A DNA stretch of 34,138 nt, from positions 1 through 34,138 of the forward strand of contig JACQPK010000193.1 in assembly GCA_016207565.1 (NCBI GenBank), written 5' to 3'. Shown one piece after another: positions 16,703-34,138 of this stretch. Origin of the DNA: Elusimicrobiota bacterium (GTDB lineage: Bacteria; Elusimicrobiota; Elusimicrobia; UBA1565; JACRDR01). The notes below the pieces were generated by a model. That model did no database searches and was not told the DNA's origin. It was given only the letters and a program-made list of their open reading frames with translations. The position numbers and the translations under genes were made by a program. Every line of letters begins with the position of its first letter. Position 1 is the first letter of the stretch.

Positions 16703-18055
<1,353 letters not shown>

Positions 18056-18077
18056 GTCCTCTCGTCGACAAAACGCG

Positions 18078-18101
18078 TTGTCAAGGCATGGGCCTTGACA
18101 A
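18078..18101. promoter_or_regulatory. Perfect 10-bp dyad overlapping the -35 box (candidate operator)
   Basis: ttgtcaaggc-atgg-gccttgacaa. Confidence 0.6.
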
Positions 18102-18122
18102 GTCTAGTCCGTCTGCTATACT
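18095..18122 (+). promoter_or_regulatory. Sigma70-like promoter for the riboswitch-led operon
   Basis: -35 TTGACA 18095-18100, 16-nt spacer, -10 TATACT 18117-18122, just upstream of the aptamer. Confidence 0.75.
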
Positions 18123-18132
18123 AGCCCCAGCA

Positions 18133-18229
18133 CGTTGTACCGACAAACTGGCAAACCGTTCGAAAGGGCGGGGCGCAAAGCGTAGGGCGCGGGGCCGAAC
18201 TCCGCGTCGCCTGGCTGCCGAAGACAACG
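18133..18229 (+). ncRNA. c-di-GMP-I (GEMM-I) riboswitch aptamer
   Basis: Conserved GGCAAACC-gttcGAAAgggc-GGGGCGCAAAG ... GGCTGCCGAAG; GAAA-capped P2 stem (ccgttc/gggcgg); P3 stem ggcgcgggg/ctccgcgtcgcc; closing stem cgttgt (18133-18138)/acaacg (18224-18229). Confidence 0.9.
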
Positions 18230-18262
18230 CCTAAGGCGGCGATTTGGAGTAGCTTGCTTTCC

Positions 18263-18329
18263 GCCCGGCCCTGACTGGCTATCTTCGGGATAGAGGGGTG
18301 AGATAGTCAGCGGGGCCGGGCCTTTTTTT
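18263..18329 (+). terminator. Intrinsic terminator downstream of the aptamer (expression platform candidate)
   Basis: gcccggccctgactggctatct ... agatagtcagcggggccgggc followed by ttttttt; 9-bp GC stem extended by a ctgact(gg)ctatct/agatagtcag helix. Confidence 0.9.
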
Positions 18330-18347
18330 GTGGGGAGGCGGGAAAGG

Positions 18348-18869
18348 ATGTCGAGAAGGTGCGCCGAGTTGGGCCGAGCCCCGAGCCGGGGCCGCCGGGC
18401 GTGGGCCGTGGCCGTATGCGCCGCAGGGTTCCTTGCCGCGGCCGCCTCGGCGGAGCCCCTCCCGGTCGGCCTCGAGGCGCACGGCGTGGATGTGCGGGCG
18501 ACGCTCCGCAGCGACCTCGACGTGCGCGACGCCCTCAACCGCCCCGTCTCGCGGGTCCTCGTCGAGCGGCAGCTCGCGGCGGGCGCCGCCGCGGCCGACC
18601 CGAGCCGGGTCGTTTCGGCCTTGCCCTTCGCCCGGGCGCTGTGGGAAGCGATCAACCGGATTCTCTTCGGCGCCGGGCTGCGCGGCGGACGGCCGGCGCC
18701 GGCTCAGGCGGCCGCCCCCGGGTTGCCGTGGAGGTTGCCGCGCCCCGAGCCCGCCGCCCTCGCCGCCGTCGCCGCCGCCTACGCGGCGGTCGTCGTCTCG
18801 CTCTTCCTACGGCCCGCCGCCGTCGCGGCGGCCCCCGCCTTCGCGCGTCCTCACGTCCTCCGCTGCTGA
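18348..18869 (+). CDS. Small exported/membrane protein of unknown function
   Basis: ATG 18348 preceded by ggaaagg; signal-like RRAWAVAVCAAGFLAAAASAEP; C-terminal hydrophobic segment AALAAVAAAYAAVVVSLFL. Confidence 0.65.
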   Translation: MSRRCAELGRAPSRGRRAWAVAVCAAGFLAAAASAEPLPVGLEAHGVDVRATLRSDLDVRDALNRPVSRVLVERQLAAGAAAADPSRVVSALPFARALWEAINRILFGAGLRGGRPAPAQAAAPGLPWRLPRPEPAALAAVAAAYAAVVVSLFLRPAAVAAAPAFARPHVLRC

Positions 18870-18969
18870 GCCTGCCTGGGGAGGCGCTCCCCGACACAAA
18901 CTCGTAACCACCCGTCGTGTCCGGACCGTTATCCTTGCCGTGCTCCGCCCAAGAAGCGGGAAAAAAAGA

Positions 18970-19677
18970 GTGCTCGAAAGCCGAAAATCGACGACGCCGG
19001 CCGCCCCTCACGCGCGCGCGCGATACTATATCGCCGCGCTAGCGGCGTCCCTCGGCTTGGCGCTCGTCTCCCCCGCCCGGGCCCAGGCCCCGGCCGAACC
19101 GAAGAAAGACGCGCCGAAGGCGCTCAAGGACGTCCGCGGCGATCTCAAGGCGCGCAAGGCCTCCGACCGGCGGCGGGCGGCCGAGGCGGTTCGCCGGAGG
19201 GAGGCCATCGCGCCCGCCGCCGAGCTGCGGGCCGCCATCCGGGCCGAGACGAACCCCCACGCGAAGGTCTCCCTCCTGCAGGCGCTCCGGGCGCAGGAGG
19301 GCACCGCCGCCGCCGCCCCCGACCTGGTGGCGGGCCTGAAGGACCGCGTGCCCCTCGTGCGAGTCGTGGCTGCCCAGAACCTGGCCCAGTCGGGCTCCCC
19401 GGCCGCGACCGCGGCGCTGATCGGGGCCCTCGCCAAGGACGAGGATCCGGATGTCCGCAAGGCGTGCGCGGTCAGCCTGGGCCTGCACCGGAGCACCCAG
19501 GCGGTCGCGGCCCTGGCGGCCGCCGCGCAGGACCCGGACCCCTCGATCCGCTGGCACGCCGGCCTGGGCCTGTCCCGGCAGCCGGCCGGTCCCGAGGTGA
19601 CCGCCGCCCTGGACCGGCTCGGGAAGGACCCCGATCCCCGGGTCCGTGAGCGCGTGGCGGCCTGGAGGAAGCGGTGA
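18970..19677 (+). CDS. Exported HEAT-repeat protein
   Basis: GTG 18970 in frame with ORF 18328-19677; signal-like YYIAALAASLGLALVSPARAQA; HEAT-like repeats VAGLKDRVPLVRVVAAQNLAQSGSPAATAALIGALAKDEDPDVRKACAVSLG. Confidence 0.75.
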   Translation: MLESRKSTTPAAPHARARYYIAALAASLGLALVSPARAQAPAEPKKDAPKALKDVRGDLKARKASDRRRAAEAVRRREAIAPAAELRAAIRAETNPHAKVSLLQALRAQEGTAAAAPDLVAGLKDRVPLVRVVAAQNLAQSGSPAATAALIGALAKDEDPDVRKACAVSLGLHRSTQAVAALAAAAQDPDPSIRWHAGLGLSRQPAGPEVTAALDRLGKDPDPRVRERVAAWRKR

Positions 19678-22600
19678 GCCTCCGGTCCCGCTCGTGGAAG
19701 GGGCTTCCCGTACTCGCGGGCCTGCTCCTCTGCGCGGCCTTCCTGCGGTTGGCGCGCTCCTGGGCCGCCACCGAGGCGATGGTGGTCTACCAGGAGGGCC
19801 TGTCCGCCTTGGCGACCCGCGACCTGGACACGACCAACGACGTCTGGGGCACGGTCACCCAGGCGGAGGACTTCAACAGCATGCCGGTCTGGGTGCGCAT
19901 CGCGGCCGCCCCCGTCGGTTCGGCGCGCCCGAACGAGAAGGTCATGGTCATCTTGGACAGCAACTCGGTGCTCAAGGCCATGGTGTTCGACGGCTCGACC
20001 TGGGGGCCGCCGCAGATCCTGTCGACCGCGCTGACCATCACGCGCACGCACATGCGGCCGTACGACGTGAGCTACACGGGGGACTACGCCCTGGTGGTCT
20101 ACGCCAACGGCGCCAACACGGGCTCCGGCTCGATGGCCTACCAGACCTGGGACGGCACGTCGTGGAGCGGAGAGTCGACGTCTACGAACGCGCCGGGGAC
20201 CGTCTGCGCCGCGCGCTGGGTCAAGCTGGCCCGCCATCCCACGACCTGGGAAAACGCGCTGATGGTCATCGACATCTGCAACCCGGCCTGGGTCTTCTTC
20301 GGCCGTCAGACCCAGCAGGTGCCGCCGATCTTCGCGTTCAACCTCCCCACCGGGCAGGAGGTGACGGACGCCAACTACGAGGGCGCCGACGTGGCCTACG
20401 AGATGCTCTCCGGCGAGATCCTCGGCGTGTGGGACCGGCCGTCCGCCAGCGAGAACGACAACGAGCTCGAGTACGCCCATTACAACGGCACGTGGAGCCA
20501 GGGCGAGTTCTCCAACGTCACGGCCGCCAACGGCGACACCGCCCGAAGGGTCAAGCTCGCCTCCAGGCCCGGCTCCGACACGATCGTAGTCGCGACCTAC
20601 GACAACCAGAACGATCTCGGCACGATCCAGTGGAACGGAACGGGCGAGACGACGTTCACCACCGTCCGCGTGGAGACCGCGCTCCGCAACACCGGGATCT
20701 ACAACTTCGACATGGCATGGGAGGAGAGCGGGGGCCAGCTCGTCCTCGCGTACACGGACAGCAACAACTACCTCCGCTACCGGACCTGGGGGGGCTCCGG
20801 CGACTGGGGCGCCGAGAGCGGCAACCTCGCGACGCTGGCGACGAACGCGCCGATTCGCTCGGTCGTCGTCTTTCCGGACCGGGGCTCCGACTACGTCAGC
20901 ATCTTCGGCGTGACCGACGAGCTGCCGACGCTCCCGGGAGGCGCCGTCTACGGCGTCCACTGGGACGGCAACGGGATCTCGAACGGCGCCTCGGGCTCGG
21001 ACGCCCCGCAGCTGGTCACGAACTACCTGTCCGACTGGACCCACGTGCCTTTGGCCGGCGCGGCGGGAACTCTCGTCTATTCGGACGCCGGCCGCCGAAT
21101 GACGACCCGGATCAACAACGAGTCCGACGGCAGCTGGCAGGGAGAGGGCGTGACCCAGCTCCTGGGAGGCGTCCGCTCCTCGGTCCTCAGGTCCGGCACC
21201 ACGCGCGAGGAGAAGGTGCTGGCGACGCTCGACGTGGAGGGCCGTTTGAAGGTGCAGGTATGGACCGAGGCGGGCGGCTGGTCGGCGCCCTTGGAGCTCG
21301 CCAACGGGCTGGCGGGAGTCGCGGCGTACCGGCCCTTCGACGTCGCCTATGAAAGGAAGAGCGGCCGGGCGGTCATCTTCTACGCGAACTCCAACATCCC
21401 GCGCTACAACATCTGGGACGGCACGACCTGGCTGTTCGGTGGGACCGGCGCGGCGATGCCCACCGGCGCGCCCGCCCAGTCCGGAACGCCCTGGTGGATT
21501 CGGGCCGAGGCGAATCCGGATCCGAACTCCGACGAGATCGTGGTCGCGACGCTCGACAACGCCGCGACGCCGGACCTGCGGGCCTACGTCTGGGACGGTT
21601 CCTCCTTCATCAGCGAGCTCCTCCTCGAGGACACGGCCGAGGCGACCGCGGCCAACAACCCGATCACCCAGGTCTTCGACCTCGCGTGGGAGAGCCAGTC
21701 GGGCCGCTGCATGGTGATCTGGGGGGACAACAACAGCACCACCTACCCGAATACCGGCGAGAAGATGCTCCGCTACCGCATCTGGGACACGGGTCCGAAC
21801 ACCTGGGGCTCCGAGACCAACACGCCGGACCAGGATTCGGACACGCCGGACATCCGTTGGGTCCGTGCCGTGGGCGACCCGAGGTCCAACCGCATCATCA
21901 TGGCCTCCTCCTTCTGGCGGTCCGGCCCGAACACGAGCCTCACGCTCAACAGCTGGAACGGCTCCGCGTGGGCGACCGCGACCCCGGGCTTCTACCAGGA
22001 GGTCGTCCTCAACAACCTCGAGCCGAACTTCACCCCCTCGACGTGGGAGCGCCGTCCCTTCGACCTGGGCTTCGAGGCCTCCGGCGAGCAGGGCCTGGCC
22101 GTCTGGTCCGCCGCCAACAACGACGCGCTCCAGTATCGGAAATTCGCCTCGGCGAGCGGCTCGTGGGACGCCACGACGGCGACGGGTCCGAACCTCATCT
22201 CCGACCCGCAGGTGATCCGCATCAACGCCGACACGATCACCGACGAGATGTACGTCCTGGCTTCCAACGCTCAGGGCATGATGTACTCGACTCGCTGGAC
22301 CGGCGCGGCCTTCGACGGGCCGAGCACGACGCTCCTGGGCGCCGTGCCGTTGAACGAGCAGTATCCCCGCGACGGAGGCCCGTCGAGCGGCTTCGTGCGC
22401 TACGAGCAGTTCGACGCCTCGTACCACCGGGACATCCTCAAGCCGGTCACGACGATCACGGCGCCCACGAACAACTCGCACTACAACAGCCTTTCGACGT
22501 TGAGCGGAAGCTCCAACGATCCCACGCCGAACGCCTCGGGCCTCAACCTGGTGGAGCTCAAGCTCGTCCGCCAGTCCGACGGCAAGTGCTGGACCGGGAC

Positions 22601-25600
22601 CGAAGCGGCCGACGACTCCGACTATGTCGCCTGCGGCGCCGGCGGCGTCTGGTTCAACGCCGCGGGCTTCACGCCCTGGACGAAGTCCATCACGACCCAG
22701 TCGAACGTCTTCGCGGACGGCCAGACCTACGTCCTCACCTCTCGCGGCACCGACAAGACGGGGAACGTCGAGTCGGCGACGCCGTCGGTGACGTTCGTCT
22801 ACGACCAGACCCTGCCGACGGGCGAGATCGTCGCGCCGAAGACGATCGCCGGCCTCGACGGCTACTACTCGGAGGCGGGCATCGCGACCGTCTCGGGAAC
22901 GGCCAACGACCTTAACCCCGGCGACGTGAACATCATCCGGCTCAAGCTCGAGCGGGTCGGCGACGGCCAGTACTACGACGGCACCAACTGGAACACCTAC
23001 GCACCGGGCTCCGAGCCGCTGCTCACGCCCAGCCCGAGCAACGGCACGGGCCTGGTCAACTGGTCGCTGAACATCGAGGCGCTCAACGGCAGCGACTCCG
23101 TCTACGACGACCAGGAGACCTACCGGCTGTACCTCCGCGTGACGGACAAGGCGGGCAACGATCGCGCGACCGAGGACGTGGTCACCTTCGCCATCGACGA
23201 GACCGCGCCCACGATCACCTTCGAGGTGCCCAAGCCCCTCACCCCGGGCCCGCTGGTCGGCCCGTCCGAGGAGCCGGTCTATCGGCCCTTCGGCTTCACC
23301 GCTCCGCCGCCTCCGATCGACGCCTACGACGGCGCGGCGGCCGACAACTTCGTGGTGGCCCAGATCGACGTCTCGATCCGTAACGAGATCAGCCTGAACT
23401 GCTGGTCGCACACCAACCAGGCGTTCAACGCCGCCTGCCCGCCGGACCCGGCCGGCTGGTTCAACGCCAACGGCACCACCGACTGGACCTACACCTGGCC
23501 GCCCGCCACCACCAACCTCGACGACTCGCGGCTCCGGCTCACGGTCCACGCCCGGGACGCGGTCGACTACGAGGCGAGCGAGACGTCCGTGATGTACTTC
23601 CGCGTGGACAAGACGACGCCGACCATCGCGATGATCAATCCCCTCGATACCGCCTGGAAATCCACGCTGACGTCGATCCGGGGCACGGCGGAGGACAACG
23701 CGCGCGGCTACCTCGAGGGCGTGCGCGTCCGGATCAAGCGCCTCTACGACAACGCCTACTGGAACGCCGGAAGCTGGGACACGACCCCGCCGGACGTGAA
23801 CTCGGCCAACTTCGTGCAGGCGATCGACGACCGCGACGGCGACACGTTCCTTCATACGCCGGACGTGACGTTCCGGCAGACTTGGACCAGCCCGTTCACC
23901 GATACGGACTGGTACAAGAAGCCCGGGGGGGGCTTCTACACCGCCGCGGACTTGAGCGGCACGCAGTTCAAGCTCTATATCACCGCCCTCGACCGCGCGC
24001 GAAACCGGACGGGGGCGCTCCAGCCCCACGAGCAGAAGTTCGAGGCGGACCCCGCGTTCCCGGCGAATCTCGGCGGGGGGTACGTGACGTTCAACTGGGA
24101 CGCGATCGCGCCGGACACGACCCTCACGTCGCCCGTCGGCGCTACCCTCGGCCCGGGGACTCCGTCGTTTTCCGGCGCCGCCACGGACGCCCACGCGGAC
24201 ATCGACGAGGTCCAGTACCGGCTGAGGCGGACGGACGTGGGTCCGAACCAGTACTGGACGGGCGCGCAGCAGTACCCCGACGGCCCCGACAACACCTGGG
24301 TGACGGTCGAGACCTGGGTGACGGCCAACTACACGGGGCCGGGCTGGAACGCGACCGATGAGCCGAACTACACGGCGACGGACTCCGGCAGGACCTACGA
24401 GCTCACGGTGCGCGCCTGCGACCGGGCGGGGGACGTCGCCCGCCCTTGCGGCGATCCGCTCAAAGAGGCGAACGTCACCACCTCGTTCACCGGGGCGAAC
24501 CAAAAGACGTTCACGATCGACAGCACGCCGCCGACGCTGGGCATCGACGACCCCGCGGTCGACGGCGAGTCGCGGAACCTCGCCAACGACGGCATCGGCC
24601 CGGCCCTCGACCCGAGCGGGAGCGCGGGCGACGCGAGCGGCATCGCCACGACGGAGGTCCAGATCTCCAAGGGTTGTCCCGGCAGCTGCCAGTATTGGAA
24701 TGAGACGACCCCGGGCTGGCAGGCGGGGGTGTTCTGGAACACGACCGACCTGGGGGGCGCCTCGTGGAGGTTCGACTTCGACCATATCACGCTCACGGAC
24801 GGACTCACCTACACCGTGACGCCGCGGGCCACCGACACCATCGGCAACCAGGGCGTCGGGGCCTTCAAGCGTTTCGTCTGGGATGTCTCGCCGCCCACCG
24901 CCAATGTGCTCTTCCCGTCGAGCGGCGCCGCCGTCTCTCCGAACGCGGTCGTGGGCGCCTGGGATAAGTCCGTGTCGGGCGACGCGGCCGACCCGGCGCC
25001 CGGCCAGCCCAACCAGGCCGAGATCTATATCCAGGACCGGACCACCGGCTGGTACTGGGACCCGGTCGACGCCCAGTTCGAATCCTCGCCCTTGGCGCCG
25101 TTGTGGTTCGCGATCGCGGACAGCCCGGCCGACCTGGCCTGGAGCGCCACCTTCAACGCCGTGACCTGGCAGACCGGGGTGTGGTATCACGTCTCGGCGC
25201 GCATCCGCGACCTCGCCGACAACGAGACCGGCCAAAGCTCTCCGGGGAACCCGGGCGACGGCACGGTCCCGCTTCCGATCTTCTACGACACCGAGAAGCC
25301 CGTCTCGCGCGTCTCGAGCATCGCCGACGGGACGTATGTCAACTCCCTGACGAACGTATCGGGCACGGCCTCCGACTTCGGCACCGGACCCCGCCGCGGA
25401 CAGGTCAGCAAGGTCTTCCTCCACGTCTACAACGTCAGCCAGGGCCAGACCTACGACTGGCTCGTGCCCGAGTGGGACACGGGCGACCTCGATCTCGCCG
25501 CCGCCAATCCCGAGACCGTCACGAACCACTGGAAGGAGGTTTCCTTCGTCGGCCAATCGAGCGGCACCTGGAGCCAGTCCCTGACGTTTTTGCCCAGCGG

Positions 25601-28600
25601 CTTCACCTACCGGATCACCGTCCGGGCCAAGGACTGGTCGGGGCAGATCGAGAGCGCGCCCGTCTCGGTTTCGTTCACCTACGACGCGCCGGCGGGCAGC
25701 GACTTCACGAACGAGATGCCGCGCGTGACCATTACGGCTCCGGCCAACAACCTCCATACCTACTCGATCCTGACCCAGCTTACCGGCACCGCCTACGACG
25801 ACGTGAAGGTGCAGAGCGTGAGCGTGATGTGGCGGCGGTTCAACGCCAACGGCACGACGGACTACTGGAACGGCGCCGCGTTCACGGGTACCGAGTCGTG
25901 GGTGGCCGGCCCCCTCGTCGTCCCGCCCGGCGACTCGACCTCCGAGGCCTTCACGTTCAACTTCCCGGGGGCCGACATCTTCTGGCTCGCCGACACCGCC
26001 CACGACGTTCGGGGCCGGGCCCAGGACGCCGCGGGGAACCTGACTCAGTTCGCGTTCTCGACGAGCACGTTCGTCTACGACGTCTCCCGTCCGACCGCGA
26101 CGATCGGCTTCCCGCTGCCGGGCGGCTTCGTGGCCGAGACGGCGCTCTCCTCCGGGTCCGCGGTCGACACCGGCGCGGGCAAGATCGGGCAGGTCCAGGT
26201 CCGGATCCAGCGCAATACCGACAACCGCTGCTTGGACATGGGCGTGCCGCCGAACGGCGACTGGGTGCTCTGCGCCTGGCCGACCTACGATTTCGAGAAG
26301 TGGAACGACGCGACGCTCTCGGGAAACAATCCTTATACGTGGACCTTCTCAAGCGCGGCATGGAACTCGGACGGCCTCGGCGGGCAGTTCACGCTGAACG
26401 CGCGGGCGTGGGACCTGGTTCCCCGTTTGGGCGTGACGTACTCCACGGTGACGTTCAACGCGGACTTCCAAAAGCCGAACTCGAAAGTCACGTTGCCGGA
26501 GCATTCCGCGAGCTACTCGAGCCTCCCGGAGGTCCGGGGCACCGCGCAGGACGCGGGGCCGGCCGGAATCCGGCGCGTGTGGGTGTCCTTCCGCCGGAAC
26601 TCCGACAACAAGTGGTTCAATCAGTCGAACAAGACCTTCGATCAGGACTCGGGCACCTCCCGGCCTCCGGGCGACTCCGGCAGCGGGTCCGTCGGAGGCA
26701 ACTACTGGGTCTCCGTCGACACCGACAACGCCAACCCCGTGAACTGGCTGGCGACCGGGTCTTCGACGCCGACGTGGCAAGACGGCGTGAGCTATACGGT
26801 CTTGAGCGCGGCCGAGGACCGGGGCGGCAACGTGGAGGACCGCCCGACGACGCCCGCGGCCAACAGCAACCGGGTGACGTTCAGCTTCGTGCAGCCCGGT
26901 CCCGAGTCCGGCGTCACGAAGCCGGTCGCCGGGGGGCCGCTCTTCAAGACGGGCGTCGTCTTGCAGGGAACCGCCAACGACCAGACCACGCTCGTGGAGG
27001 TGCAGATCAAGGACGTGACGGACAGCCAGTGCTGGTGCGACCTGCCGGAGGTCTGCGCGGGCGGGGCCGGCTGGAAGGATGAGCCCTGCTCCTTCTGGGT
27101 CAACGTGGTCGGCTACGTCGCCCAGTCGCCGACGTGGAATTTCACGATGCCCGCCGATCCGTCGAGCCAGCTTCACCAGTACTCGATCCAGTCGCGCTCC
27201 CGGCGAACGATCCCGGCGGCAACCGAGAGCCCGAAGCCGGCGAGGACGTTCTACCTCGACGACGTCGCTCCGGTGAGCAACCTGACTCTGCCCGATACCG
27301 GCTTCAAGAACCGGCTGCCGCTCCTCGCCGGCAACGTGACCGACGACTCGACCGACCCCGCCCCGGTCGGGCTGGCGAACAAGACCGTGTACTTCCGCAT
27401 GCAGCACGAGAACGGGAACTTCTGGGATCCCGTCGGCGAGAGCTTCGTGGCCGCCGGGGGGATCGACTGCCTGACCCCGGGGACGACGAACGGGACCTGC
27501 CTGGTCGCGACGCCCACGGGCGCCAGCAGCTACGAATACACGCACGCGCGGTTCACCGACGGAACGGCGTTCACCAACGACAAGCAGTATACGGCCAGCC
27601 TGATCGCAAGGGACTACGCGAGCAACAGCCCCGGAGCCGTGAGCCGGAGCTTCCGCTGGGACCTGGACCCGCCGGTGGCGGCAAGCACGCAGCCGGCGAC
27701 GGCGCCGACGATCAACAGCCTCGGGACCCTGGCCGGCACGGCCTCGGAGGACTTTTCGCCCGTGGTGGTGACCAGCGTCTCCATCCGCTCGCTCCTCGAC
27801 GATAAGTGCTTCGACGGCAGCTTCTTCACCCAGACCTGCCCCTTCTGGCTTTCGGCCAGCGGCTCGGGCAACGCCACGGCCGGCTCGGGGGTCTGGAGCC
27901 GCGCGGCCGGCGGCCTGACCACGCTGCTGGGTACCTACAACACGTGGTACACGATCCTCTCCCGGGGCATCGACGAGGCGGGCAACCATCAGACCACGTT
28001 CGCCGACAACGTCTCCTCCCGTACTTTCCTGTTCGACTCCCTGGCCCCCTTCACCCAACTGACGGTGCCGACCGACAAGGATGCCGGCTCGACGAGCGGA
28101 CGCTACAACAGCTCCGAGCTCGGGACGATCGCGAGCCCGCTGGAAGGCACCGCGCAGGACCAGAACGCCCCCTGGGACTCGGGGATCCGGGACGTGCGGT
28201 TCCAGCTCTATTACACCCAGGCGTCGGAGAACTGGTATCTGCGCACGGACTGGACCCCGATCGCGTTCTCGTCGCACGTGCCCCTCGATAACGGGGGCTG
28301 GGTGCAGCGCTCCGTCTACGACTCGGGGACGAAGGTCTGGAAGTTCCTGCCGGTCATCCCGTGGGGCTACCCCGTCGAGCGTGTCTACACGATGAAGTCC
28401 CGGGCCGAGGACGCGAGCTTCACCGGCACGGGAGCGGCGACCGGCAACTTCGGCAACCCCGTGACCGACGGCGTCGACGTCCGCGACTTCATCGTCGATG
28501 ACACGTCGCCCACCGTGACGCTGACCGCCCCGGCGGCGGCGGCGGTTCGCGAGCTCCCGTCGATCACCGGGCAGGTGAACGCCGACATCTCGGGCCTCGA

Positions 28601-31600
28601 CAAGGTCGAGCTGAAGCTGGCGCGCCAGGACGGCAAGGAGTGGGACGGCGACTCCTGGGAGACGGGGCCTTTGGGGTGGCTCACGGCCTCGTGCCCTGGT
28701 TGCACGACCGGGCTCGTCGCGTGGAGCTACAGCAGCGTCTCCGGCGCGTTCCAGGACAACAACCAGTACACGATCTCCCTGCGGGCGAAGGACCTGGTCG
28801 GAAACACCCAGACGAACGCCGACTTCACGTTCAAGTTCGATACCTCGTCTCCGACCTTGACGATCGAGTTCCCGAGCCCGAAGACGCCGGAGCCGTACTA
28901 CTCGAACGACTCCCTGTCCACGCGCAAGAGCACGTTCACGTGGGGCAACATCACCGATCCGGGGGCCAACGCCTCGGGCGTGACCCAGGTCTGGGTCGCG
29001 ATCTCCTCGGGTCTCACGGGCAACGATATCTGGTGGAACCCGGCCTCCTCGGCCTTCGACCTGGGCGACAACACCGCGATCGAGTGGTCGACGCAGGTGT
29101 ACCGCTACGTCGGCGGCACGTGGGAGTACACCCCGGGCTGGACGCTCAAGGACGGCTACCGGTATTCGATCTTCGTGAAGGCGCGCGACCTGGCCGGCAA
29201 CACCACCAACTACGTGCTGACGCCGGGACAGTCGGGCGGGGCCCACACGCAGGTCTTCCATTATGATGTCACCCGCCCGACCGCGACGGCGACGACGCCG
29301 GCGAACGGCTCGGCCTACGCCGCGCTGACGCAGTTCCAAGGCAGCGCGGCCGACACCGGCGCCGGCGCCTCGGACGTGTCGAACGTCTACCTCGCCGTCG
29401 AGCACGCGGACGGGCCGACCGGTCAGATCGGCTTTTGGCACTGGGGTAACTCGGCGTTCACCAACTCGATCGTCGGGCAGCCGAGCCTCGACCCCGACAG
29501 CTTCAGCCCGGCCTGGCAGCAGGTGGCGAGCGGGCCGGGGGCCTGGACCTGGCCGGTGCCGGGGGGGATGTTCTCCAGTTCGAACACCTACCGGGTCATC
29601 GTCGCGGCGAAGGACAGGGCCTCCAACCGGCCCTCGGACGCCCAGGCGGGCGGGGCCGGCTTCGGCAACTACTTCCGCTACGACACCGAGTCGCCTTCCG
29701 CGAAGGTGACCGCGCCGGCGCTGGCGCCCCGCAACCCCTCGACGATCGGCGCGAACATCACGGGCACCGCCTCGGACGCGACGAGCGGCGCCTCGGGCAT
29801 CAAGACGGTGCAGGTGCTGATGAAGCTCAACTCGCCGGGCTTCGAGGCGTACTGGAACGGGTTCACCTCGGGCATCTTCGGCACCGACTGGGATCAATCG
29901 GCGAGCCGGCGCAACAACTGGCGGGACGTGTCGGCGCCGCTGGACAGTTGGACCGAGGCGCTTCCTCCCCTGCCCGCGGGCGGCCAGCACGACTCGCGCT
30001 ACTACACGATCTGGGTCCGCACCACGGACTACGCGAACAACGTGCTCGCGACCCCCTCGGACGTCCAGCTCGACGCCAACCAGAACTCGGACGGCTCCGG
30101 GGCCTGGCGGTTCATCTACGACGCCACGCCCCCGACGTCCGTGTCGACGGGCCCGGCCCGCTACCTGGCCGCCGCGCCTTTTGCCCTGGCGGGCAACTCC
30201 TCCGACGCGTTCCCGGGCCGGCAGCCGTCGGGGGTCAACGAGGTGAAGCTGCGCCTCAAGCGCTCCGACGGGCTCTACTGGAACTTCGACGACGCCTGGG
30301 GCGGAGAGACCTGGGCCGGGGTCTTGAGCGCGGTTGACCCGTGGTCGATGCCGGTGCCCGTCGTCCAGTTCGCCGACGGCTACGAGTACTACGTGAACTC
30401 CTGGGCGAAGGACGCCTCCGCCAACGGCGAGACGGACCTGTCAACCTGGACCTTCACGCTCGACCAGACCCGGCCGGTCTCGCGCGTGGGCGTCCCGGCG
30501 CACAACGGCTTCTTGGGCGCGGTCACGCAGATCACCGGCACCGCCGATGACCGCTACTGCCAGTGGAACGCCCCGTTCACCTGCCCCGGCGCGGGCGGCC
30601 GGAACTTCGAGAGCGGCATCGCTCCCTCGAGCGTGACCGTCGCGCTGATGCGCTACAGCGACGAGAAGTACTGGAACGGCGCGGACTTCGCCTCGAACGT
30701 GCCGGTCTGGTCGACCGCGTCCTTCGTCGGCCAGTCGAGCGGCACCTGGACCTATAACCTCTCGGCCGGCGCGCTGGTCGACGGCTCGAGCTACACCGCC
30801 TCCTCGCGCGTGGTGTGGGACCGCGCGGGCAACGTCGAGACCCTGATCACGACCAACACCTTCACGATGGACAACCAGGCGCCGGTCTCGCTGGCGACGG
30901 CCCCGACCGGCGCCGTCAGCCAGATGAACGCGCTCTTCGGCACCGCGCGCGACCCGCTGATCGGCCAGCTGGACGTGGTCCTGCTCAAAATCCACCATGT
31001 CTCGGGCCCCGGCTCGCGCGCCGTGTGGAACGGGACCGGCTGGACGCCCGGCGACGACGATATCTGGGTCGGCACGGGCACGATCGGGGGCCTCGTCGAG
31101 CAGACGACCTACACGTGGACGTTCAACCAGGCGGTCACGTGGCGCAGCAACGCGAACTACGAGATCAAGACGCGCGCGCGCGACCGCGCCGGCAACCTCT
31201 CGCCGATCCCGCCGGTTCCCGAGCTGACCTTCACCATCTCGGGTCCCCAGTCGGGCATCACCGGACCGGGCGCGGGCGAGCCCCATTTTCAGCCCGCGAA
31301 CCTGGGCGCGATCACGGGCACCGCGGTGAACGCCTCGACCGCCGCCGTACGGATCATCGACGCGGGCCCGGACCGCGTCCTCGACGACGGCAACGACGAC
31401 CTCGTGTGGACCGGCGCGGTCTGGGCGTCGACCAGCCCGTGGCCGGCGATCTGCGCCGCGGACCTCTGCTATATCGGCGCCTCGGGCTACAACGGCGCGC
31501 CGAACCCGAACACCTGGAGCTTCGCGTTCCCGACCGCGAGCTGGACTCCCGGGCGCCGCTACCGCGTGCAGGCGAAGGCGATCAACCCGCCGGACGGCGA

Positions 31601-34138
31601 GATCGACTTCACGGGCGAGGAGACTCGCACCTTCATCATCGACGCCGCGGCTCCCACGCCGACCGTGACCTTCCCGGCGGGCCAGGCCTACCGGCGCAAC
31701 CAGCTCGGGACGCTGACCGGCAGCGTCTCGGACGCGGCTCCGGGCATCCTGGTGAACACCAACGTGCGCTTCCGCTTCGTGCGGGTGATGGACGGTTACG
31801 AGTGGGACGACACGATCGACGGCTTCGCGGCCCCCGCCTCCAATCCCGCCGGCCAGGACCTGGTGGCGACCCCCGCCGGCGGCAACAACTTCACCTATAC
31901 GAACACGGAGCTCGGTAACGACGCCGGTTTGGAAGACGGCCTCCTCTATCAGATCCGCTTGACGGGCGTCGATCAGGCGGGAAACAACGGGACCGTCAAC
32001 CAGCCGGCCGCCGGCTTCCGCTACGACGTGTCCTACCCGACCGCGACCATGACGACGCCGTTGCCGAACGTGATCATGAACCGGGTCGGACGGATCGTCG
32101 GCAACCATGCCGACCGCGATCCCAACGGCGCCAGCTCGAACTACGACCCCTCCGGGGTCACGCAGGTCAAGATCTTCGTCCAGAGCCAGCAGAACGGCGG
32201 CTTCTTCCAGGACGCGCCGACCGCCGGGTTCTTGAGCGGCACGCCCTTCGGCCTCCAGGCGACCGTGCACGAGACGTCGTTCACCTACAACAACCCCGAC
32301 CTCAACGCGGCGATGTCCGACGGCCGCTACACCCTCTATGTGCAGGCGGTCGACCGCGCCCTCAACGAGCAGTACAGCTTCGCGGCGGCGAACTCGTCGT
32401 TCACGATCCTCGTGGACAAGACGGGGCCCACGATCGGCCTCACCCAGCCGGCGCTCCCCGCCTACAACCAGGGGGCGATCGTCGCGGCGGGCATCGGCGG
32501 CAACGCGGACGATCCCTTGGTCCCCTTGGCCAACGGTACCTCGTCCGGCTTGTTGACGACGGGCGAGGGCATCGACGTGAACCTCTGGTACGTGGTCGGC
32601 GTCAGCAGCAACTACTGGAACGGGTCGAACTGGGTCCCCTCCTTCTCGACCCTCCCGGTCAACGGCGCCGCCGGCTGGACCCTGCTCGCCGCGCCGAACG
32701 CCGCGCAGTGGGCGGCGGCGGGGGACCAGACGTTTTTCGTCCGCGCCCGGGCCCACGACCGCACCGTGCTCGAGGACGGTAACGTCAGCGTGTCGAGCGG
32801 CAACGTGAGCGCGTTCACGCCGGACCGCTCGTTCATCGTCGACAACACGCCCCCGGTCTCGTCGCCGACGTGGCCGGTCAACGGCAGGTACGCGAACGCG
32901 ATCTCCTCCATCACCGGCACCGCGAACGCGGCGTTCTCGGGCCTGGCGTCGGTCGCGGTGAAGATCACGACGAACAACGCCACGGGCCCGTGGTGGGGAG
33001 GCGGGGGCTGGACCTTCGACGCGGGACAGTCCTGGCGGCCGGCGCAGGTGCTGAGCCAGACCACCTGGATCTACCCCGGGACGGCGGGCGACGCGCCCGC
33101 CGCCTTCGCGGCGGCGTTCCAGAACGACTACCGCTACCTCTTCTACACGCGCGCGACCGACAACGCGGCGAACCAGGAGAGCTCGCCGCCCGTCATCGCG
33201 ACGGACTTCGATACGACGCCTCCCATCATTACGATCGCGCGGCCGGCGGGACCGCCCTCGAACCCTGCGTACACCTCCAGCGACACCGTCGACACGACGC
33301 GCTGGATCAACCTGACGTCCGGCACGGTCAACGACCTCGGCACGTTCGCGTCGGGCGTGGGCACGGTGTGGGTCGCGGTCTCGTCGGGCGTGCTCGAGAA
33401 CCTGTGGTGGGACGCGACCTCGGGGCTGTTCACGCAGAGCCAGGCCAACATCCACTGGACCACGAACGTCTTCACGGGGGGCACGAGCTGGAGCACGGCG
33501 CCCGCGACCTTCCTCCACCAGGCCTGGCGCGACGGCGCCTCCTACCGCCTGCACGTCAAAGCCTGCGACGTGGCGGGGAACTGCGGCAACAACAACACCG
33601 CGCCGGGCCTTTCCGCCGCGGGCTGGAACCAGCTCTTCAAGTTCGACCTCAGCCGCCCGACGTCCACCGTCACGACGCCGGCCAACGGCGCCGACCAGCG
33701 GGCGATCGCGCAGCTCGCAGGCAACGCCTCCGACGCGAACGCCGCCGTCTCGCGCGTGTACGCGGCGGTGCAGCACACCGGCGGCGCGGGCGCGCAGCCG
33801 CTCGGCTGGTGGAACTGGGGCAGCGGCGCCTTCGACGCCGTCGGCAACCCGTCGCCGAACGAGCCGCCGGGCGTCTACTGGACGCTGGTCGCCTCCACGA
33901 CGCTCTTCGACCAGTTCACGATGAACTGGTCCACGCCGGCCCCGGCCAACATGTTCAAGTCCTCGGAGACCTACCGCGTCGTCGCGATGGCGGTCGACAA
34001 CGCGGGGAACTTCCAGGCGGGCCCGGATTTCGCGGGGGCCGGCTCGAGCTTCCGCGTCGACACGAGCTCGCCCGTCGCGAAGGTCACGGCGCCGGTCGGC
34101 AGCGTCCGGCTCGCGACCTTGGGCAGCCTGCTCGGGAC
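19674..34138 (+). CDS. Giant secreted repeat protein (WDG-repeat N-terminal region + tandem Ig-like modules), 3' end outside window
   Basis: GTG start overlapping HEAT gene TGA; signal-like LRSRSWKGLPVLAGLLLCAAFLRLARSWA; my frame reading found no stop to base 34138; repeated module pattern (D..xPTxxVTxPxxG...GTAxD...YWNGxxF...YxxxxRAxDxAGN). Confidence 0.9.
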   Translation, partial: MSLRSRSWKGLPVLAGLLLCAAFLRLARSWAATEAMVVYQEGLSALATRDLDTTNDVWGTVTQAEDFNSMPVWVRIAAAPVGSARPNEKVMVILDSNSVLKAMVFDGSTWGPPQILSTALTITRTHMRPYDVSYTGDYALVVYANGANTGSGSMAYQTWDGTSWSGESTSTNAPGTVCAARWVKLARHPTTWENALMVIDICNPAWVFFGRQTQQVPPIFAFNLPTGQEVTDANYEGADVAYEMLSGEILGVWDRPSASENDNELEYAHYNGTWSQGEFSNVTAANGDTARRVKLASRPGSDTIVVATYDNQNDLGTIQWNGTGETTFTTVRVETALRNTGIYNFDMAWEESGGQLVLAYTDSNNYLRYRTWGGSGDWGAESGNLATLATNAPIRSVVVFPDRGSDYVSIFGVTDELPTLPGGAVYGVHWDGNGISNGASGSDAPQLVTNYLSDWTHVPLAGAAGTLVYSDAGRRMTTRINNESDGSWQGEGVTQLLGGVRSSVLRSGTTREEKVLATLDVEGRLKVQVWTEAGGWSAPLELANGLAGVAAYRPFDVAYERKSGRAVIFYANSNIPRYNIWDGTTWLFGGTGAAMPTGAPAQSGTPWWIRAEANPDPNSDEIVVATLDNAATPDLRAYVWDGSSFISELLLEDTAEATAANNPITQVFDLAWESQSGRCMVIWGDNNSTTYPNTGEKMLRYRIWDTGPNTWGSETNTPDQDSDTPDIRWVRAVGDPRSNRIIMASSFWRSGPNTSLTLNSWNGSAWATATPGFYQEVVLNNLEPNFTPSTWERRPFDLGFEASGEQGLAVWSAANNDALQYRKFASASGSWDATTATGPNLISDPQVIRINADTITDEMYVLASNAQGMMYSTRWTGAAFDGPSTTLLGAVPLNEQYPRDGGPSSGFVRYEQFDASYHRDILKPVTTITAPTNNSHYNSLSTLSGSSNDPTPNASGLNLVELKLVRQSDGKCWTGTEAADDSDYVACGAGGVWFNAAGFTPWTKSITTQSNVFADGQTYVLTSRGTDKTGNVESATPSVTFVYDQTLPTGEIVAPKTIAGLDGYYSEAGIATVSGTANDLNPGDVNIIRLKLERVGDGQYYDGTNWNTYAPGSEPLLTPSPSNGTGLVNWSLNIEALNGSDSVYDDQETYRLYLRVTDKAGNDRATEDVVTFAIDETAPTITFEVPKPLTPGPLVGPSEEPVYRPFGFTAPPPPIDAYDGAAADNFVVAQIDVSIRNEISLNCWSHTNQAFNAACPPDPAGWFNANGTTDWTYTWPPATTNLDDSRLRLTVHARDAVDYEASETSVMYFRVDKTTPTIAMINPLDTAWKSTLTSIRGTAEDNARGYLEGVRVRIKRLYDNAYWNAGSWDTTPPDVNSANFVQAIDDRDGDTFLHTPDVTFRQTWTSPFTDTDWYKKPGGGFYTAADLSGTQFKLYITALDRARNRTGALQPHEQKFEADPAFPANLGGGYVTFNWDAIAPDTTLTSPVGATLGPGTPSFSGAATDAHADIDEVQYRLRRTDVGPNQYWTGAQQYPDGPDNTWVTVETWVTANYTGPGWNATDEPNYTATDSGRTYELTVRACDRAGDVARPCGDPLKEANVTTSFTGANQKTFTIDSTPPTLGIDDPAVDGESRNLANDGIGPALDPSGSAGDASGIATTEVQISKGCPGSCQYWNETTPGWQAGVFWNTTDLGGASWRFDFDHITLTDGLTYTVTPRATDTIGNQGVGAFKRFVWDVSPPTANVLFPSSGAAVSPNAVVGAWDKSVSGDAADPAPGQPNQAEIYIQDRTTGWYWDPVDAQFESSPLAPLWFAIADSPADLAWSATFNAVTWQTGVWYHVSARIRDLADNETGQSSPGNPGDGTVPLPIFYDTEKPVSRVSSIADGTYVNSLTNVSGTASDFGTGPRRGQVSKVFLHVYNVSQGQTYDWLVPEWDTGDLDLAAANPETVTNHWKEVSFVGQSSGTWSQSLTFLPSGFTYRITVRAKDWSGQIESAPVSVSFTYDAPAGSDFTNEMPRVTITAPANNLHTYSILTQLTGTAYDDVKVQSVSVMWRRFNANGTTDYWNGAAFTGTESWVAGPLVVPPGDSTSEAFTFNFPGADIFWLADTAHDVRGRAQDAAGNLTQFAFSTSTFVYDVSRPTATIGFPLPGGFVAETALSSGSAVDTGAGKIGQVQVRIQRNTDNRCLDMGVPPNGDWVLCAWPTYDFEKWNDATLSGNNPYTWTFSSAAWNSDGLGGQFTLNARAWDLVPRLGVTYSTVTFNADFQKPNSKVTLPEHSASYSSLPEVRGTAQDAGPAGIRRVWVSFRRNSDNKWFNQSNKTFDQDSGTSRPPGDSGSGSVGGNYWVSVDTDNANPVNWLATGSSTPTWQDGVSYTVLSAAEDRGGNVEDRPTTPAANSNRVTFSFVQPGPESGVTKPVAGGPLFKTGVVLQGTANDQTTLVEVQIKDVTDSQCWCDLPEVCAGGAGWKDEPCSFWVNVVGYVAQSPTWNFTMPADPSSQLHQYSIQSRSRRTIPAATESPKPARTFYLDDVAPVSNLTLPDTGFKNRLPLLAGNVTDDSTDPAPVGLANKTVYFRMQHENGNFWDPVGESFVAAGGIDCLTPGTTNGTCLVATPTGASSYEYTHARFTDGTAFTNDKQYTASLIARDYASNSPGAVSRSFRWDLDPPVAASTQPATAPTINSLGTLAGTASEDFSPVVVTSVSIRSLLDDKCFDGSFFTQTCPFWLSASGSGNATAGSGVWSRAAGGLTTLLGTYNTWYTILSRGIDEAGNHQTTFADNVSSRTFLFDSLAPFTQLTVPTDKDAGSTSGRYNSSELGTIASPLEGTAQDQNAPWDSGIRDVRFQLYYTQASENWYLRTDWTPIAFSSHVPLDNGGWVQRSVYDSGTKVWKFLPVIPWGYPVERVYTMKSRAEDASFTGTGAATGNFGNPVTDGVDVRDFIVDDTSPTVTLTAPAAAAVRELPSITGQVNADISGLDKVELKLARQDGKEWDGDSWETGPLGWLTASCPGCTTGLVAWSYSSVSGAFQDNNQYTISLRAKDLVGNTQTNADFTFKFDTSSPTLTIEFPSPKTPEPYYSNDSLSTRKSTFTWGNITDPGANASGVTQVWVAISSGLTGNDIWWNPASSAFDLGDNTAIEWSTQVYRYVGGTWEYTPGWTLKDGYRYSIFVKARDLAGNTTNYVLTPGQSGGAHTQVFHYDVTRPTATATTPANGSAYAALTQFQGSAADTGAGASDVSNVYLAVEHADGPTGQIGFWHWGNSAFTNSIVGQPSLDPDSFSPAWQQVASGPGAWTWPVPGGMFSSSNTYRVIVAAKDRASNRPSDAQAGGAGFGNYFRYDTESPSAKVTAPALAPRNPSTIGANITGTASDATSGASGIKTVQVLMKLNSPGFEAYWNGFTSGIFGTDWDQSASRRNNWRDVSAPLDSWTEALPPLPAGGQHDSRYYTIWVRTTDYANNVLATPSDVQLDANQNSDGSGAWRFIYDATPPTSVSTGPARYLAAAPFALAGNSSDAFPGRQPSGVNEVKLRLKRSDGLYWNFDDAWGGETWAGVLSAVDPWSMPVPVVQFADGYEYYVNSWAKDASANGETDLSTWTFTLDQTRPVSRVGVPAHNGFLGAVTQITGTADDRYCQWNAPFTCPGAGGRNFESGIAPSSVTVALMRYSDEKYWNGADFASNVPVWSTASFVGQSSGTWTYNLSAGALVDGSSYTASSRVVWDRAGNVETLITTNTFTMDNQAPVSLATAPTGAVSQMNALFGTARDPLIGQLDVVLLKIHHVSGPGSRAVWNGTGWTPGDDDIWVGTGTIGGLVEQTTYTWTFNQAVTWRSNANYEIKTRARDRAGNLSPIPPVPELTFTISGPQSGITGPGAGEPHFQPANLGAITGTAVNASTAAVRIIDAGPDRVLDDGNDDLVWTGAVWASTSPWPAICAADLCYIGASGYNGAPNPNTWSFAFPTASWTPGRRYRVQAKAINPPDGEIDFTGEETRTFIIDAAAPTPTVTFPAGQAYRRNQLGTLTGSVSDAAPGILVNTNVRFRFVRVMDGYEWDDTIDGFAAPASNPAGQDLVATPAGGNNFTYTNTELGNDAGLEDGLLYQIRLTGVDQAGNNGTVNQPAAGFRYDVSYPTATMTTPLPNVIMNRVGRIVGNHADRDPNGASSNYDPSGVTQVKIFVQSQQNGGFFQDAPTAGFLSGTPFGLQATVHETSFTYNNPDLNAAMSDGRYTLYVQAVDRALNEQYSFAAANSSFTILVDKTGPTIGLTQPALPAYNQGAIVAAGIGGNADDPLVPLANGTSSGLLTTGEGIDVNLWYVVGVSSNYWNGSNWVPSFSTLPVNGAAGWTLLAAPNAAQWAAAGDQTFFVRARAHDRTVLEDGNVSVSSGNVSAFTPDRSFIVDNTPPVSSPTWPVNGRYANAISSITGTANAAFSGLASVAVKITTNNATGPWWGGGGWTFDAGQSWRPAQVLSQTTWIYPGTAGDAPAAFAAAFQNDYRYLFYTRATDNAANQESSPPVIATDFDTTPPIITIARPAGPPSNPAYTSSDTVDTTRWINLTSGTVNDLGTFASGVGTVWVAVSSGVLENLWWDATSGLFTQSQANIHWTTNVFTGGTSWSTAPATFLHQAWRDGASYRLHVKACDVAGNCGNNNTAPGLSAAGWNQLFKFDLSRPTSTVTTPANGADQRAIAQLAGNASDANAAVSRVYAAVQHTGGAGAQPLGWWNWGSGAFDAVGNPSPNEPPGVYWTLVASTTLFDQFTMNWSTPAPANMFKSSETYRVVAMAVDNAGNFQAGPDFAGAGSSFRVDTSSPVAKVTAPVGSVRLATLGSLLG

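Follow-up and report, generated by a model that had tools for sequence, protein, structure and literature searches.

The window analysed here is the whole of one contig (C77, 34,138 bases) of the genome of an uncultured Elusimicrobia bacterium, which was assembled to 4.95 Mb in 519 contigs and is 77.5% complete. On its + strand, the gene for adenylosuccinate synthetase, purA (16736–18055; PF00709, E 1.6e-165), which falls outside the regulated unit, is followed by a leader and then by three co-directional genes. The first of these (18348–18869), whose ATG at 18348 comes directly after the terminator of the leader, encodes a small secreted protein of 173 aa with a signal peptide recognized by eye, a motif LDVRDAxNRPVS and a C-terminal VLRC, and it matched no Pfam or NCBIfam family. 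The second (18970–19677; PF13646, E 3.7e-20) specifies a secreted HEAT-repeat protein, its start presumably being the GTG at 18970. The third (19674–34138) overlaps the HEAT gene by 4 bases and runs off the contig, so that its 3' end lies beyond the window. It encodes a giant secreted protein of at least 4821 aa, with a signal peptide (by inspection) and a long tandem array of Ig-like domains: Pfam detects Big_3_3 and Big_13, and an HMM built from the protein's own repeats finds some 29 Ig-like units, each about 130 aa long, from residue 916. An AlphaFold model of the N-terminal region, calculated without an alignment, had a pLDDT of 32. The giant protein is a putative surface or adhesion protein. 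The first-pass annotation had described a riboswitch leading a giant secreted-protein operon; the giant gene does lie downstream, but it is the third gene, and the small secreted ORF comes first.

The leader contains a c-di-GMP-I aptamer (RF01051), the only Rfam family to exceed its cutoff anywhere in the 34-kb window. In an Infernal scan (cmscan), the check proposed in the first-pass annotation, the match occupies 18140–18222 on the + strand, covers model positions 1–87 of 87 and scores 53.9 bits (E 5.2e-8), against a gathering cutoff of 35 bits. Outside the Rfam model, a closing stem P1 pairs CGTTGT (18133–18138) with ACAACG (18224–18229); it was identified by inspection and forms in the predicted aptamer folds. 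With P1 the element extends over 18133–18229, exactly the span that had been annotated, and the GAAA loop said to cap P2 is present at 18162–18165. The aptamer shares with Vc2 and its relatives the full-length match above the cutoff, the GAAA-capped P2 and the ligand contacts G, A and C. It differs from them in P3, where the alignment has deletions at those positions that form the tetraloop receptor in the RF01051 consensus (CUAAG/UAUGG). Docking of a GNRA tetraloop in P2 on a P3 receptor is typical of Vc2; the family model does not demand it, and the receptor is also absent from other RF01051 members in the phylum, which still pass the cutoff. The P3 loop region fits the model poorly, with dips in the posterior, as might be the case if the match had arisen by chance or if the aptamer had decayed and no longer functioned. 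This is rendered extremely improbable by the score and E-value, by three further RF01051 copies in the genome, and by three diverged orthologs that retain aptamer, promoter and terminator with covarying stems (see below).

The base that discriminates between c-di-GMP and cGAMP, equivalent to G20 of Vc2, is G18150, which stands two bases before CAAACC and precedes the P2-proximal G-C pair. This position was correctly chosen in the first-pass annotation, since A14 of the cGAMP riboswitch is likewise the base immediately preceding C15, with which P2 begins (PMC6274999). By alignment, the remaining contacts are A18177 (A47) and C18218 (C92, located from the consensus), and the three together form the c-di-GMP set. 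The predicted ligand is c-di-GMP, in agreement with the earlier preference for c-di-GMP over the A20 cGAMP class (GEMM-Ib). The GEMM-Ib (3',3'-cGAMP) riboswitches of Geobacter have the same fold and general junction sequence, whereas their discriminating base is A, in place of the G found here. The 5' CGACAA, previously taken as a Geobacter-type mark, carries little weight, as close orthologs read CGAAAA. The c-di-GMP-I-GGC variant (RF03167) resembles the present aptamer in its short, receptor-less P3 and aligns at 50.4 bits; this is below its cutoff of 59, its model reads CGCGAA where CGCAAA occurs here, and it expects G at the position of A18177, so assignment to this variant was rejected.

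The cell probably has the means to make c-di-GMP: its genome encodes five or more strong GGDEF domains, each with the canonical Asp. Eight PilZ matches are also present. Hypr cGAMP synthases have Ser where canonical GGDEF proteins have Asp (PMC6456294), and a search of the recovered genome (77.5% complete) found no such domain. RF01786 (c-di-GMP-II) had no match in this genome, in a search that matched none of the control genomes either. Recognition of 3',3'-cGAMP, whether in place of c-di-GMP or alongside it, is improbable. Another leader of the same genome (L001, below) has A at the discriminating position, suggesting that the lineage may use both, and the lack of a tetraloop receptor in P3 and the sub-cutoff match to RF03167 point the same way; the contacts G18150, A18177 and C18218, however, are those of c-di-GMP, and the recovered GGDEF domains all have Asp, although in an incomplete genome a cGAMP synthase could be missing.

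Upstream of the aptamer is a sigma-70-type promoter on the + strand (18095–18122), TTGACA-16-TATACT with TG before the -10 element, which agrees with the consensus at 11 of 12 positions. It is the sole promoter-like site in 17900–19800, where shuffled sequences gave a mean of 0.0, and the orthologous leaders have a similar TTGACA...TATACT. Downstream, an intrinsic terminator (18263–18329, +) is predicted to fold and is kept in three genera. By inspection, its stem consists of 11 pairs (18263–18273 with 18311–18321), a bulged A and 10 further pairs (18275–18284 with 18301–18310), followed by seven T (18323–18329). In the third-genus ortholog (G001), the outer stem has one C-G to U-A change and one U-G to C-G change, both compensatory, and the T tract is weak; in the ortholog from the other genus (G003), one G-C pair has become G-U. 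The terminator dominates every predicted fold at full length, and shares no base with the aptamer, which ends at 18229. A conserved intrinsic terminator between aptamer and first gene is the arrangement of an attenuator. The scan of 17900–19800 gave no second promoter and no further terminator on the + strand. The first-pass annotation had reported neither the promoter nor the terminator (stem 18263–18321).

Downstream of purA, both G003 and G001 have an orthologous aptamer, terminator and small gene (leaders L045 and L046), and their small proteins share the motif LDVRDAxNRPVS, with the C-terminal VLRC found here and in G001. By these comparisons, three genera have kept the leader together with the first gene. 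A second contig of G003 (C93, L056) carries the end of a small gene, with VLLC, then a HEAT protein and then a giant-protein homolog, with 38% identity across the first 1000 residues. There is no overlap between this contig and the G003 contig that holds the leader, their adjacency being deduced, and the arrangement is consistent with conservation of the whole operon in two genera. Within the 100-base gap that separates the small gene from the HEAT gene (18870–18969), the short blocks CCCCGACACA, CTCGTAA and ACCGTTAT are kept in G003. A pattern joining the end of the aptamer to the terminator, GCCGAAGA-N35-65-GGCTATCTTCGGG, was searched in 85,462 species, each represented by one genome; it occurs in JAPLKK010000219.1 and JACQPI010000095.1, both from Elusimicrobia, and in 8 others. 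These eight matches from outside Elusimicrobia (L076–L083) are mostly from Prevotella and relatives.

The riboswitch might govern the small secreted protein only, with the HEAT and giant genes transcribed from a promoter of their own in this gap; these two genes could have such a promoter that escaped detection. The small gene is the only one that adjoins the leader in all three genera, and the partial conservation of the gap in G003 would fit this arrangement. On the + strand of the gap, however, the scan detected nothing resembling a promoter or a terminator, the three genes are co-directional with HEAT and giant genes overlapping by 4 bases, and the gene order at the end of the G003 contig is the same. 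Restriction of control to the small gene is judged fairly unlikely, and a single operon of three genes is preferred.

How the aptamer might communicate with the terminator was examined by predicted folds of the three leaders. The aptamer 3' end, CCGAAGA (18218–18224, +), which holds the C92 equivalent, is complementary to UCUUCGG (18282–18288, +) in the terminator 5' half, and is a candidate antiterminator partner for it. The latter segment lies within CTGGCTATCTTCGGG, the inner 5' segment of the stem, which is invariant in 3 of 3 orthologs while its paired 3' arm varies. Its constancy despite a changing partner suggests a second constraint, beyond pairing in the terminator. CUUCGG being frequent as a tetraloop sequence, the complementarity could also be accidental. 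In ensembles of transcripts ending before the 3' arm, the CCGAAGA:UCUUCGG pairing amounts to 0.3–0.7 in G003, to at most 0.33 in G001 and is negligible here; the dominant pairing in the present leader is a different one, between the P2 3' strand and the 5' arm of the terminator. Shuffled sequences formed a P2-strand duplex as good in 6% of cases here, 2% in G001 and 78% in G003. As an antiterminator common to all three orthologs the P2 strand was rejected, being convincing here and in G001 and absent in G003, where the duplex is no better than shuffles. There are two candidates, and neither pairing is good in all three orthologs; RNAalifold, given the three leaders truncated after the 5' half of the terminator, found the helices of the aptamer and no antiterminator. 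Before the 3' arm is made, the predicted folds pair the aptamer with the terminator 5' half in 2 of 3 orthologs and partly in the third. Competition between aptamer and terminator is predicted in all three, via different pairings.

From the computed features (aptamer, promoter, terminator, conservation and gene order) we infer ligand, antiterminator, sign and surface role, and read the locus as a c-di-GMP-I transcription attenuator over the small-protein/HEAT/giant operon, most likely OFF at high c-di-GMP, with a probability of about 0.66. RNA polymerase would start from the promoter at 18095–18122 and transcribe the aptamer. Binding of c-di-GMP would keep the core and 3' end of the aptamer folded, the terminator hairpin would form, and transcription would stop before 18348. 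With no ligand, the aptamer 3' end CCGAAGA, the P2 3' strand, or both would pair with the terminator 5' half, giving read-through. The net effect would be that c-di-GMP switches the operon off.

Provided that the leader is a switch, the OFF sign is probable because terminator and aptamer share no base, and a ligand-bound aptamer is compatible with the terminator and, on the simplest view, would favour it. A precedent is Cd1, a class-I OFF switch in which aptamer and terminator are able to form together (PMC9262584), and in C. difficile the class-I riboswitches tested behave as OFF switches, among them one that precedes a putative adhesin gene (PMC6200980). The present leader has in common with these (Cd1, and Cdi-1-2 before a calcium-binding putative adhesin; PMC9262584, PMC6200980) a class-I aptamer, a separate downstream terminator, a surface-protein target and probable OFF logic, and differs in its unrelated platform sequence, its occurrence in Elusimicrobia, its giant Ig-repeat target and a sign that is deduced from the leader.

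The opposite sign, with c-di-GMP blocking termination so that the giant-protein operon is turned ON, is unlikely without being far-fetched. Bc2, a class-I ON switch, stands before cap, the collagen adhesin gene of Bacillus thuringiensis (PMC4933901), and likewise combines a class-I aptamer with a terminator before a surface-protein gene. Activation of surface proteins would be plausible by biofilm logic, and predicted apo folds allow the 3' strand of the aptamer to pair with the linker that leads to the terminator. Unlike Bc2, which was shown to be ON, the present leader has its terminator (from 18263) wholly downstream of the aptamer (to 18229), leaving no evident way for the ligand to block it, and it is strands of the aptamer that are predicted to compete with the terminator. 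The first-pass annotation had cited activating adhesin examples as a parallel; the non-overlapping terminator rather favours repression, and the OFF attenuator remains the preferred reading.

There are four RF01051 matches over the cutoff in this genome. One leader (C60:6879–6956, - strand; L004/L007) precedes a second giant secreted protein, 2285 aa or longer, with fibronectin-like repeats by eye, and a leader with a similar secreted protein occurs in G002 (L008). Another (C150:4262–4337, - strand; L003) precedes a CsgG-like protein (PF03783, E 8.7e-14) and has an ortholog in another genus, G003 (L013). The fourth (C513:23707–23784; L001:1501–1578) precedes a PorV/PorQ-like gene, the product of which scores 88.1 bits with NF033709, just under the cutoff of 90; a search of the genome contigs found no relatives of this protein. 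The start codon of this gene is 5 bases after the aptamer (2–6 bases in PorV-type leaders generally), and the PorV-type leader recurs in many Elusimicrobia. On the same contig, an open frame of about 5551 aa (C513:1–16657; L057, L005) ends in a FlgD-Ig domain that resembles a type IX secretion sorting domain (NFPNPFDS).

The discriminating base is A in L001 and in further leaders of its own family (L009, L010, L011, L026), and G in the PorV-linked leaders of the sampled sister families (L024, L030, L033–L037, L041, L043, L044). Taken together, the leaders hint at a surface-secretion regulon, and at a change of ligand in one orthologous leader. As a tentative and rather doubtful extension, the GEMM-I set of this Elusimicrobia family would form a surface-secretion regulon (giant secreted, CsgG-like and PorV-like proteins) in which c-di-GMP would act on the G20 leaders and cGAMP on the PorV leader; the latter, A20 here and G20 in sister families within the order, would be an orthologous riboswitch with a changed ligand.

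The first-pass annotation was right in what it saw and is supported in its main reading. On sequence grounds, the leader is a real riboswitch of a known kind, although its target is unusually large, and would add giant secreted proteins with Ig arrays to the targets of c-di-GMP riboswitches. None of the papers searched deals with c-di-GMP-I riboswitches in Elusimicrobia, a phylum with almost no cultured members. RF01051 is carried by 83 of the 248 genomes sampled from it, pointing to a widespread and apparently unexamined regulatory layer, and the mixture of A20 and G20 leaders offers a natural test of how riboswitch specificity may change in place.
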